Shown in pieces: positions 51,835 to 56,033 of a DNA stretch of 64,000 nucleotides. Position 1 is the first letter of the stretch, and each line of letters starts with the position of its first letter. The stretch spans positions 82,044 to 146,043 of the forward strand of contig CANGNF010000008.1 of assembly GCA_947455205.1 (NCBI GenBank). Direction: 5' to 3'. Made by a program: the position numbers and the translations under genes. The notes under the pieces were generated by a model that saw nothing but the letters and a program-made list of their open reading frames with translations, had not been told where the DNA came from and did no database searches. Source of the stretch: Acetobacteraceae bacterium (lineage in GTDB: Bacteria > Pseudomonadota > Alphaproteobacteria > Acetobacterales > Acetobacteraceae).

Positions 51835-51846
51835 GCCGTATACGGC
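51835..51846. promoter_or_regulatory. 12-bp palindrome GCCGTATACGGC (operator candidate)
   Basis: Perfect palindrome; near copy GCCGTATACGAC at 51898-51909. Confidence 0.45.
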
Positions 51847-51883: not shown

Positions 51884-51912
51884 TTGACGCGGCCCCCGCC
51901 GTATACGACGAT
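51884..51912 (+). promoter_or_regulatory. Candidate sigma70-type promoter with GCCGTATACGAC in spacer
   Basis: TTGACG-17nt-GACGAT, 30 nt before ATG 51943; -10 is a weak match. Confidence 0.35.
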
Positions 51913-51942: not shown

Positions 51943-52674
51943 ATGACCGCGCTGATGAACCAGGACGAATTCCGCACCGCGCTGGAAAACGCCATCAAGG
52001 GCAAGAGCGCGAACAAGTCGCCGTTCAGCGTCGCCTGGGCCTCGGGCAAGCTCTCGCGTGAGCACCTCTGCCGCTGGGCCGAGAACCACTACCACTATGT
52101 CGGCCCCTTCGCCGACTACCTGGGCTACGTCTATGGCCGCATGCCGGCGCAGTACCAGGAGGCCAAGGACTTCCTGCTGGCCAACATGTACGAGGAAGAG
52201 ATCGGCGGCGACCGCCACACCGACCTGCTGATCCGCTTCGCCGAGTCCTGCGGCACCACGCGCGAGCGGGTGAAGGACGAGAACAACATGTCCGCCACCA
52301 CCCGCGCCCTGCAGGCCTGGTGCTACTGCGTGGCCATGCGGGAAGACCCGATCGTCGCCGTCGCCGGCCTGGTGGTCGGGCTTGAGAGCCAGGTGCCCAG
52401 CATCTACCGCCGCCAGACCCCGACCCTGCGCGAGAAGTACGGCTTCACCGACGAGGAGGTCGAGTTCTTCGACCTGCACATCGTCTCCGACGAGATCCAT
52501 GGCGAGCGCGGCTACCAGATCGTGCTGGAGCACGCGACCACGGTCGAGCTGCAGCAGAAGTGCCTGAAGATCTGCGAGATCGGCGCCGAGATGCGGCTGC
52601 TGTACACGACGGCGCTGTACAACGACTACGTCGCCAGCGACCTGTCGCTGGCCGACCTGGACATGGCCGCCTGA
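51943..52674 (+). CDS. TenA/PqqC-like, HDO-superfamily iron-containing redox protein
   Basis: WAENHYHYV...ANMYEEEIGGDRHTDLL...EVEFFDLHIVSDEIHGERGYQIV: E/E-H/HX3DX2H ligand pattern of heme-oxygenase-like diiron proteins. Confidence 0.75.
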   Translation: MTALMNQDEFRTALENAIKGKSANKSPFSVAWASGKLSREHLCRWAENHYHYVGPFADYLGYVYGRMPAQYQEAKDFLLANMYEEEIGGDRHTDLLIRFAESCGTTRERVKDENNMSATTRALQAWCYCVAMREDPIVAVAGLVVGLESQVPSIYRRQTPTLREKYGFTDEEVEFFDLHIVSDEIHGERGYQIVLEHATTVELQQKCLKICEIGAEMRLLYTTALYNDYVASDLSLADLDMAA

Positions 52675-52704
52675 TTTTGTGGGCAACCACGTTGCCCACA
52701 AAAT
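52674..52704. repeat. Perfect 14-bp stem hairpin overlapping HDO stop region
   Basis: ATTTTGTGGGCAAC-cac-GTTGCCCACAAAAT. Confidence 0.7.
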
Positions 52705-52858
52705 GAGGCCATTTCCGCCCTCAAGCGCGTCGTGCGAGCAGCACGCCTGCGGCGTGGGCGCGGCCATCCGGCCGCTTGCCTTGCGCCGGACAACCGGCGG
52801 GCGCCGTTCGGCGCCTCGGCCCGGGGCTGGGCCCCGTGCCGCATTCATGAGGAACCGC

Positions 52859-53155
52859 ATGCCCTCCGTCACCTTCCGCGTCGGCGACCAGGCCTTCACC
52901 GAGGAGGTGGCGGACAACACCAACCTGGTGGTCCGCGCCGGCATCAAGAAGTTCCCCTTCCCGCACCTGAAGTACAAGTGCGGCATGGGCAAGTGCGGCA
53001 CCTGCGCCTGCCGCGTGCTGGCGGGCGCGGATGCACTGCCGGAGCCGAACTGGAAGGAAGAGAAGGTGCTGGGCCACCGCCTGGCGCAGGGCTGGCGGCT
53101 GGGCTGCCAGCTCTGGCTGCATCACGACCTTGAACTGACGCAGGACCGCCCCTGA
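52859..53155 (+). CDS. [2Fe-2S] ferredoxin 1
   Basis: LKYKCGMGKCGTCACRVL...GWRLGCQLW, CX4CX2CXnC; ATG 52859 with GAGGAA upstream. Confidence 0.85.
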   Translation: MPSVTFRVGDQAFTEEVADNTNLVVRAGIKKFPFPHLKYKCGMGKCGTCACRVLAGADALPEPNWKEEKVLGHRLAQGWRLGCQLWLHHDLELTQDRP

Positions 53156-53472
53156 TGTACGCCATCCTGACCAGCAAGCCCGGCCAGTACCGGACCGAGA
53201 TCGCCGCCGGCGTCACCCCGGTGGAAGCCTATGACTACGTCTTCTGCGGCGCCGTCCGCGCCCGCTTCGTCATCGCCGAACTGGGCGACGCCAAGCGCCT
53301 GCACGTGATCGACGAAGGCACCCCGCCCACGGTCAACAAGGTGCCGGTGAAGTTCTTCCCCAGCTTCGCCACGCTGGAAGCGGCGCGGCGCGAGCTGCAG
53401 CACCTGGTCAAGTTCGGCTCCATGCAGGTGGCGCTGGACCCCGTCCCGCTGCCGCGTGCGGTTGCCGCCTGA
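53155..53472 (+). CDS. Conserved-looking orphan protein between two ferredoxins
   Basis: 105 aa MYAILTSKPGQYRTEIAAGVTPVEAYDYVFCGAVRARFVIAELGDAKRLHVIDEG...; stop/start overlaps of 1 bp with both ferredoxins. Confidence 0.75.
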   Translation: MYAILTSKPGQYRTEIAAGVTPVEAYDYVFCGAVRARFVIAELGDAKRLHVIDEGTPPTVNKVPVKFFPSFATLEAARRELQHLVKFGSMQVALDPVPLPRAVAA

Positions 53473-53789
53473 TGCCGCAGGTCACCTTCCTGACCAATGC
53501 CGGCAAGGTCGCGCCCGCGCCGGAGGAGCCGACCAGCCTGCTGCGCATCTCCATCCGGGAGAAGGGCGGCATTCCCTTCAAGTGCGGCGGCGGCCTGTGC
53601 GGCACCTGCAAATGCCTGATCGAGGTGGGCCGCGAGAACACCGACGCGATCAAGCCTAAGGAACGCAAGCACCTGAGCGAGGAGCAGTTCGCACAGGGCT
53701 GGCGCATGGCCTGCCAGACCTTCGTCCTCGGCGATGTCAGCGTCTCCTGGCCGCCGCCCCCGCCCAAGCCTGGCAGCGCCACGAGCTGA
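53472..53789 (+). CDS. [2Fe-2S] ferredoxin 2
   Basis: IPFKCGGGLCGTCKCLIEVGRENTD...QGWRMACQTF, CX4CX2CXnC. Confidence 0.85.
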   Translation: MPQVTFLTNAGKVAPAPEEPTSLLRISIREKGGIPFKCGGGLCGTCKCLIEVGRENTDAIKPKERKHLSEEQFAQGWRMACQTFVLGDVSVSWPPPPPKPGSATS

Positions 53790-53882: not shown

Positions 53883-54362
53883 ATGAAAAAAGCCCTGAAG
53901 CTGGAAGCCCGCGAGGCCCGCGCCATGGTCGCCGCCGCGCTGGCGGAAGCCGCCCGCCTCGGCGTGCCGCAGACCTGCTGCGTGACGGATGAAGGCGGCT
54001 TCCCCATCGCGCTGGAACGCATGGACGGCGCCCGCGTCACCGGCCCGCAGATCAGCTGGAACAAGGCGTTCACCGCGGCTGGCCACAAGCGCAGCACCCA
54101 CCTGTTCAACACTCCGCCGAACGGGCCGGCGCTGCCGGGCAACGAGGCCTTCGGCATCCAATGGAGCTTCGAGGGCAAGTTCGCCGTCTTCGTCGGCGGC
54201 TTCCCGGTGGTGGTGGATGGCGAGGTCGTCGGCGGCATCGGCCTGTCCGGCGGCAATGGCGAACAGGACATTGCCTGCGGCGTCGCCGGGCTGAAGGCGC
54301 TGGCCGAGCTGCTGGCGCCCGAGGGCCACACCGTGCTGGTGGCGGCGGATATCAAGAAGTAG
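53883..54362 (+). CDS. GlcG/HbpS family heme-binding-like protein
   Basis: EARAMVAAALAEAARLGVPQTCCVTDEGGFPIALERMDGARVTG...NEAFGIQWSFEGKFAVFVGGFPVVVDGEVVGGIGLSGGNGEQD. Confidence 0.8.
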   Translation: MKKALKLEAREARAMVAAALAEAARLGVPQTCCVTDEGGFPIALERMDGARVTGPQISWNKAFTAAGHKRSTHLFNTPPNGPALPGNEAFGIQWSFEGKFAVFVGGFPVVVDGEVVGGIGLSGGNGEQDIACGVAGLKALAELLAPEGHTVLVAADIKK

Positions 54363-54384: not shown

Positions 54385-54852
54385 GTGACCCAAGACTCCC
54401 CCGCCCCGGCCGGTTTCCGGCAACTCCCCGGCTACGACAAGCCCGTCTTCAACAACCTGGTCGGCCCGCTCTGGGCCATGTCGGAGGGTGCCGACGGCAT
54501 CCTCTACGGCTTCCGGGTGGAACTGCGGCACTGCAACCCGCAGGAGGTCGCTCATGGCGGCCTGCTGGCCAGCTTCGCCGATATCGTGCTGACCGGCGGC
54601 ACCAACTACGTGGCGCGGCTCTCGCGCTTCGTCGTCACCGTCTCGCTCGCCACCGACTTCCTCGCCCCGGCAAAGATCGGCGCCTGGGTGCAGACCCGGC
54701 CGGAGGTGCTGCGCGTGGGCCGCAGCACCGCCTTCAGCCAATGCCTGGTCACGGCTGATGGCAAGCCGGTGCTGCGCTGTTCCGGCACCTTCAACCTGAG
54801 CGGCGAGGTGCACGAGAAATACGACCGGCTGCGCCACTTCCTCGGCACATGA
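54385..54852 (+). CDS. PaaI-like hotdog thioesterase
   Basis: FRVELRHCNPQEVAHGGLLASFADIVLTGG...VTVSLATDFLAPAKIGAWVQTRPEVLRVGRSTAFSQCLV. Confidence 0.8.
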   Translation: MTQDSPAPAGFRQLPGYDKPVFNNLVGPLWAMSEGADGILYGFRVELRHCNPQEVAHGGLLASFADIVLTGGTNYVARLSRFVVTVSLATDFLAPAKIGAWVQTRPEVLRVGRSTAFSQCLVTADGKPVLRCSGTFNLSGEVHEKYDRLRHFLGT

Positions 54853-56033
54853 GCCGCGCGGCCAGCCTGGGCACGGCGCTGCTGGCAACCACCACGGCGC
54901 AGGGGCTGGCCACCTTCACCGTCTTCGTGCTGCCGGTGCTGGCACCGCAGGCCAGCGCCACGCTGGGCGTGGGGGCGCAACTCATCGGCGTGCAGATGGC
55001 GCTGGTCTATGGCGCGGCGGCCTGCACCTCCGCGGTGGCTGGCGGCGCGCTGCGGCGCTGGGGGCCGGCGCGATGCACGCAGATCGCGCTGGCCAGCGCC
55101 GCCTTCGCCTGCCTGGCCATCGCGCTGGGGGGCCTGGCCGGCGTGGCGCTGGGGTCGCTGGCCACCGGGCTGGGCTATGGCCTGACCAACCCGGCCGCCA
55201 CGCAGGTGCTGGCGCGGCTGGCGCCGCCGGCCCGGCGCAACATGGTCTTCGCCATCAAGCAGACCGGCGTGCCGCTGGGCGGGGCGCTGGCCGGGCTGCT
55301 GCTGCCAACGCTGGCGGCCTGGCTGGGCTGGCAGGGCGCGGCGGTGCTGGCCGGCGCCACCATCGGGCTGGTCACCCTGGCCTACGCCCCGCTGCGCCGG
55401 CACTGGGACACCGAGCGCGACCCGACCTCCCCCCTGCGAGCCGGCAGCGGCGCCGGCTTGCGGGCGCTGCGGGAACAGCCGGGGCTGCTGGGGCTGGCGG
55501 TATGCGGCGGCTGCTACAGCGGCATCCAACTGGCCATGGGCGCCTTCATGGTCACCATGCTGGTGGCCGAGTTCGGCTGGACCCCGGTGGCCGCCGGCCT
55601 GGCCACCGCGTTGGTGCAGGCGGCGGGGGCGGTGGCGCGGCTGGCCTGGGCCTGGGTGGCGGACCGCAGCGGCAGCGGGCTGCGCACGCTGGTGGCCATC
55701 GGCTGCCTGACGGTGGCCTGCGCCGTGCTGATCCCGCTGGCACCGGCCTGGCCGCAGGTGGCGGTGCTGGCGCTGTTCACCGCGCTGGGCTTCTGCGCCT
55801 CCGGCTGGAATGGCGTGCTGATGGCCGAGACCGCCCGCATGGCCGCACCCGGCCGCGCCGGGGAGGCCGCCGGTGGCGTGCTGGTGCTGAGCTTCGGCGG
55901 CGTGGTCGTGGGGCCAGGCCTGGCGGCGGCGCTGGTGGGCCTGGTGGGCAGCTACGCCCTGGCCTTCGCCGCGCTGGCGGTGCTGCCGCTGACCGGGGCC
56001 GTGGTGGCCTGGCGCACGGCACGGCGGGCGTAG
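54849..56033 (+). CDS. MFS transporter
   Basis: 12-TM hydrophobic pattern, VFAIKQTGVPLGGALAGLLLP. Confidence 0.85.
   Translation: MSRAASLGTALLATTTAQGLATFTVFVLPVLAPQASATLGVGAQLIGVQMALVYGAAACTSAVAGGALRRWGPARCTQIALASAAFACLAIALGGLAGVALGSLATGLGYGLTNPAATQVLARLAPPARRNMVFAIKQTGVPLGGALAGLLLPTLAAWLGWQGAAVLAGATIGLVTLAYAPLRRHWDTERDPTSPLRAGSGAGLRALREQPGLLGLAVCGGCYSGIQLAMGAFMVTMLVAEFGWTPVAAGLATALVQAAGAVARLAWAWVADRSGSGLRTLVAIGCLTVACAVLIPLAPAWPQVAVLALFTALGFCASGWNGVLMAETARMAAPGRAGEAAGGVLVLSFGGVVVGPGLAAALVGLVGSYALAFAALAVLPLTGAVVAWRTARRA

Follow-up and report, generated by a model that had tools for sequence, protein, structure and literature searches.

A conserved module of a heme-oxygenase-like dimetal oxygenase candidate, two ferredoxins and an orphan protein in Proteobacteria

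The HDO module

Four genes, encoding a candidate heme-oxygenase-like dimetal oxygenase (HDO), a plant-type [2Fe-2S] ferredoxin (Fd1), an orphan protein of 105 aa and a second [2Fe-2S] ferredoxin (Fd2), form one travelling module across many Proteobacteria, in dozens of genera. On balance, the module is probably a multicomponent oxygenase for a small imported substrate, in which the HDO would be fed by its own ferredoxins and the orphan would act in docking or coupling. A module conserved to this degree, with ferredoxins, a permease and a probable switch of its own, would suggest that the HDO fold has a role in catabolism. It would also make it possible to test how an HDO is supplied by ferredoxins and perhaps gated by a protein. 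Its distribution apart from a 6-hydroxynicotinate reductase-like gene (Hnr) in most genomes also disposes of an attractive though unlikely account of the electron source of Hnr.

The copy described here lies in a window of 64 kb, the whole stretch of DNA analysed. All of its genes are on the forward strand: HDO at 51943–52674 (243 aa), Fd1 at 52859–53155 (98 aa), the orphan at 53155–53472 and Fd2 at 53472–53789. The start of Fd1 is placed at the ATG at 52859, as opposed to the mechanical GTG start of the open reading frame at 52679. The original prediction had described an HDO/TenA-like protein with an HX3DX2H pattern, followed by two [2Fe-2S] ferredoxins flanking a 105-aa protein, with the last three genes joined by 1-bp TGATG overlaps at 53153 (Fd1/orphan) and 53470 (orphan/Fd2). 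All of these features are seen in the sequence at the positions given. The unit extends further than that description, with a fifth member encoding an HbpS/GlcG-like protein at 53883–54362 on the forward strand (PF03928, 2e-32; found close to HDO under 33 of 37 genus labels) and two GTATAC sites upstream, at 51838 and 51901. The five genes are regarded as real because dN/dS is below 1 for HDO, Fd1, the orphan, Fd2 and HbpS in every pair tested. Thioesterase and MFS genes lie after HbpS (54385–56033) and stand beside the module in the window's genus only.

A perfect hairpin of 14 bp lies directly 3′ of the HDO stop on the forward strand (52674–52704). Hairpins with changed arms occur at the same place in three other loci (L015, L016 and L017), and none is present in L018, where the gap between HDO and Fd1 is 12 bp. 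From the few sequences compared, the stem-loop may be a transcript-end or stability element.

The HDO protein

The HDO matches PF14518 at 1e-36, scoring 126.7 bits against a cut-off of 28.9. The pattern noted originally is present as H179-X3-D183-X2-H186, and alignment to CADD gives the full 3His/3carboxylate set of E85, H92, E148, H179, D183 and H186. Ligand conservation had been proposed as a check on the assignment, and all six metal ligands are invariant across the 87 homologues (87/87). The AlphaFold2 (AF2) model has a pLDDT of 84 and is closest to CtCADD (TM 0.78/0.88), followed by PqqC, TenA homologues, UndA and HrmI. The protein is probably an oxygen-using iron enzyme. Its identity is 84–99% among the best 80 of 475 relatives from a scan of genome contigs, and 83–99% among orphan-bearing copies.

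Among solved structures, CADD and another 4-aminobenzoate synthase come closest, which raises the reading that the HDO is itself a self-sacrificing 4-aminobenzoate (pABA) synthase like CADD, with the ferredoxins only serving it. This is extremely improbable. Tyr27 and Lys152 of CADD align with S29 and Q158 of the HDO, and both of these residues are invariant in the 87 copies. The HDO is not considered a pABA synthase of the CADD kind because the sacrificial Tyr and Lys are replaced; it also misses the curated cut-off of the CADD family TIGR04305, with 101.7 against 200 bits. The curated cut-off of the PqqC family TIGR02111 is likewise missed (49.6 against 240 bits).

Ferredoxins and the orphan protein

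Pfam places both ferredoxins in PF00111 (Fd1 4e-9, Fd2 6e-12). The CX4CX2C...C cluster motif is present in every complete homologue, 85/85 for Fd1 and 84/84 for Fd2. The protein between them had been called unassignable, and this holds: Pfam and NCBIfam give no family. The AF2 model of the orphan (pLDDT 88) has seven strands and one helix, and no fold match in the PDB is better than E 0.89. A match to effectors of the MmoB/DmpM type was found neither in Pfam at E up to 10 nor by fold in the PDB. No usable match came from the sequence and fold searches of the orphan. One of 12 members matches Phage_Bbp19 (8e-7); this family was set aside because the other 11 are without it. A Skermanella plasmid record labels the orphan ‘ferredoxin’ (L117:13157-13480). 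This label is not supported, since the window copy has a single cysteine that is not conserved in the alignment.

The orphan and the HDO are found in the same genomes. Separate searches for HDO (at 83% identity or above) and for the orphan across 148 relatives and 399 genomes of the phylum placed both in the same 14 of the relatives (Fisher 7e-20) and the same four of the phylum genomes (Fisher 1e-9). At the loci measured, Fd1 is followed by the orphan and then by Fd2 as contiguous genes, the listed gaps being −16 to 93 bp. The HDO is sometimes a few kb from this trio, or divergent from it.

Association with Hnr

Window genes upstream of the module look like a nicotinate-type cluster, an assignment that rests on the original prediction and on gene context. 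As 6-hydroxynicotinate reductase belongs to a ferredoxin-dependent class (EC 1.3.7.1), the module had been proposed as its dedicated electron supply, with Fd1 and Fd2 as donors of the neighbouring Hnr-like reductase and the HDO as a side gene. In each of the six genomes examined from the window's genus (6/6), module and Hnr do adjoin and share a strand. The distribution beyond that genus makes the proposal very unlikely. Hnr is present in 39/148 relatives and 33/399 phylum genomes. Among the relatives, 27 of the 39 Hnr genomes are without the HDO module and two of the 14 module genomes are without Hnr; in the phylum set, the corresponding figures are 31/33 and 2/4. In G427, a genome with both Hnr and HDO, the two are approximately 168 kb apart.

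Of eleven further regions that were cut out, ten centre on Hnr (L156–L165) and the other on a divergent HDO (G280, L155). None of HDO, Fd1, the orphan or Fd2 found a match in any of the ten Hnr loci. Scanning these loci for plant-type ferredoxin motifs yielded two matches, which look like chance reading frames. Four of the ten (G067, G032, G016 and G040) belong to the window's family and carry Ena, Cox, Hnr and UPF0280 genes. The ferredoxins go with the HDO, and with Hnr in the window's genus only. It is therefore unlikely that the module powers a vitamin-breakdown cluster, as it adjoins such a cluster in one genus only, and a role as partner of Hnr was rejected. The supply claim also faces the module's own palindromes, common to a GntR-permease locus elsewhere in the genome.

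In the phylogenetic profile suggested with that claim, most Hnr genomes lack the module; a weaker association of the two remains within the family. With the window's genus left out, Hnr occurs in 6/8 HDO genomes and in 27/134 others (Fisher p=0.002, with genome size and lifestyle uncontrolled). At phylum level, with the window's genome left out, the association has p=0.22. A looser link between Hnr and HDO within the family is graded as possible, because genome size and lifestyle were uncontrolled.

The placement beside Hnr looks derived. In the HDO tree the window's genus stands beside a Rubritepida copy, at a poorly supported fork (87/39), and this neighbour has the order GntR-permease-HDO. 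In the window's genus only, the module may have been taken over for the oxidation of a nicotinate-type pathway product, such as the enamidase product, with another substrate elsewhere. The stable adjacency within the genus and the family-level association are consistent with this, as is the like restriction of the thioesterase and MFS genes. Set against it, the module has kept its own palindromes, shared with the GntR-permease pair on another contig, and the HDO is 84–92% identical to copies without Hnr in the stretch compared; recruitment of this kind is considered rather unlikely. The original prediction had offered, as a second option, a separate oxygenase or decarboxylase acting on a ring-opening product. 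The separate and oxygenase-like character is supported; action on a ring-opening product has no support outside the window's genus and would be conceivable within it.

Regulatory palindromes

Two operator-like palindromes precede the HDO. The first (CCGTATACGG, 51836–51845) is a probable GntR/FCD site, with GTATAC at 51838. The second (CCGTATACGA, 51899–51908) has GTATAC at 51901 and lies 63 bp from the first. These are the only two GTATAC sites in the 64 kb window, and both are inside the 116-bp gap between the UPF0280 gene and HDO. Across 90 HDO copies, 75 have GTATAC within 200 bp upstream. Of the 15 without it, 14 were examined, and 11 have a site immediately 5′ of the permease gene, which in these copies stands ahead of HDO; no GTATAC was found in the stretch examined for L039, L051 and L067.

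In the window's genus the module lies by the nicotinate-type cluster, and the GntR and permease genes are on another contig with the same palindromes. The gap between these two genes in the genome of the window contains two matching sites (L114, 9265 and 9397). The extended pattern YCGTATACRRCR occurs at five distinct places in this genome. Two of them precede HDO, two fall in the gap between GntR and permease, and the fifth lies within a BamA-like coding region. A test for a GntR/FCD regulon found the palindrome upstream of HDO to be common to the GntR-permease locus. The GTATAC palindromes are probably GntR/FCD operators. A literature search on such an operon, the operator sequence and homarine returned nothing on the module.

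The wider unit in other genera

From the 475 relatives in the genome-contig scan, the best 80 (79 loci) were retained; with a few added loci there were 85 with HDO, under 37 genus labels, some of which stand for unnamed MAGs. In this set, HDO is accompanied by Fd1 and Fd2 and has as neighbours a GntR gene in 36 labels, HbpS in 33, a permease in 22, an aldehyde dehydrogenase in 17, a TauE/SafE protein in 14, and a reductase and an OCD family gene in 12 each. The regulator is of the GntR/FCD type and the permease is approximately 510 aa. The reductase is BenC-like, with [2Fe-2S], FAD and NAD domains. The order annotated on a Skermanella plasmid is GntR (divergent), permease-like, HDO, ferredoxin, orphan, ferredoxin, aldehyde dehydrogenase, HbpS and reductase. 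No BenC-like reductase was found in the genome of the window, and the aldehyde dehydrogenase was not found in the Acetobacteraceae loci examined.

Variants of the unit were also observed. Four loci (L047, L084, L089 and L098) have two HDO copies each. In Kaistia and Aminobacter, one HDO copy is with HbpS and the reductase, and the other with Fd1-orphan-Fd2, the aldehyde dehydrogenase and TauE/SafE. A divergent HDO in G280 (L155:6929-9650), 46% identical, has HbpS, GntR, two GTATAC-type sites and a Rieske-like gene beside it; neither the orphan nor the ferredoxins were found at this locus.

Naming a substrate from the neighbours was attempted; aldehyde dehydrogenases, permease, and OCD- and GGT-family genes did not narrow the choice. 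The linked aldehyde dehydrogenases score under the cut-offs of every family listed. The permease has no relative in Pfam, NCBIfam or the PDB, and one homologue matches DUF969 below its cut-off. Another reading is an oxygenase that cleaves sulfonates, with sulfite and an aldehyde as products. It would fit the TauE/SafE-family exporters (14 genus labels) and the sulfite dehydrogenase genes SorA/SorB, which lie upstream of HDO at 12 Achromobacter loci (including L054, L059 and L094). TauE/SafE proteins transport other anions as well, however, and the SorAB genes vary inside Achromobacter, being missing from other loci of that genus. The window's module has neither TauE/SafE nor SorA/SorB close by, and the Acetobacteraceae loci lack both; sulfonate cleavage is judged improbable.

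Proposed mechanism

In the preferred reading, that of a ferredoxin-fed oxygenase, GntR would control the HDO locus and the permease locus through the GTATAC palindromes. The permease would import a small, probably anionic, substrate. The HDO is predicted to bind a dinuclear iron (or Mn/Fe) site, activate O2 and oxidise the substrate, probably to an aldehyde, which the linked aldehyde dehydrogenase of other genera would remove. Electrons may pass from NAD(P)H to the BenC-like reductase (linked in some other genera), then to one or both ferredoxins before reaching the HDO. The orphan would dock the ferredoxins to the HDO or gate the reaction, and HbpS may assist in some way.

The shared genomes of HDO and orphan, the gene order, the neighbours, the palindromes, the ligands and fold, and the precedent of MboA/MboB all count for a ferredoxin-fed oxygenase. 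That no BenC-like reductase was found in the window's genome, and no aldehyde dehydrogenase in the Acetobacteraceae loci examined, counts against it. HDOs characterised to date do not require an effector protein (PMC13108848), and the orphan has no match to an MmoB/DmpM-type effector; both points also count against this reading. The stricter form of the proposal, a catabolic multicomponent oxygenase that has the heme-oxygenase-like dimetal fold, needs a coupling protein of unmatched fold and has two ferredoxins dedicated to it, is put forward as a tentative and somewhat doubtful possibility.

Comparison with known systems

The nicotinate Hnr cluster is known from Azorhizobium and Bradyrhizobiaceae (PMC3511419). 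The window genes upstream of the module resemble it, whereas Hnr loci elsewhere (ten loci) are without the HDO module. Members of the HDO superfamily include CtCADD, UndA, HrmI, BesC and MboA (PMC13108848). The module HDO is similar to these in fold (model TM 0.78 to CtCADD) and in the 3His/3carboxylate ligand set. It differs in the absence of the pABA-synthase residues, in being accompanied by two ferredoxins and the orphan, and in its neighbours, which are catabolic-looking as opposed to natural-product genes.

MboA/MboB is an HDO with a dedicated reductase partner, MboB, described as drawing on NAD(P)H, a [2Fe-2S] cluster and a flavin (PMC13185094). Both systems pair an HDO with its own redox partner, and the domains of the reductase linked in other genera ([2Fe-2S], FAD and NAD) are similar to what is described for MboB, but the module has ferredoxins with a small protein in between, and no linked peptide-biosynthesis genes. 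Soluble methane and phenol hydroxylases are multicomponent oxygenases with a reductase and a small coupling protein. The part list of oxygenase, iron-sulfur carrier, reductase and accessory protein of ~100 aa is alike, whereas the oxygenase of the module is of the HDO fold and its orphan matches neither MmoB/DmpM nor a PDB fold.
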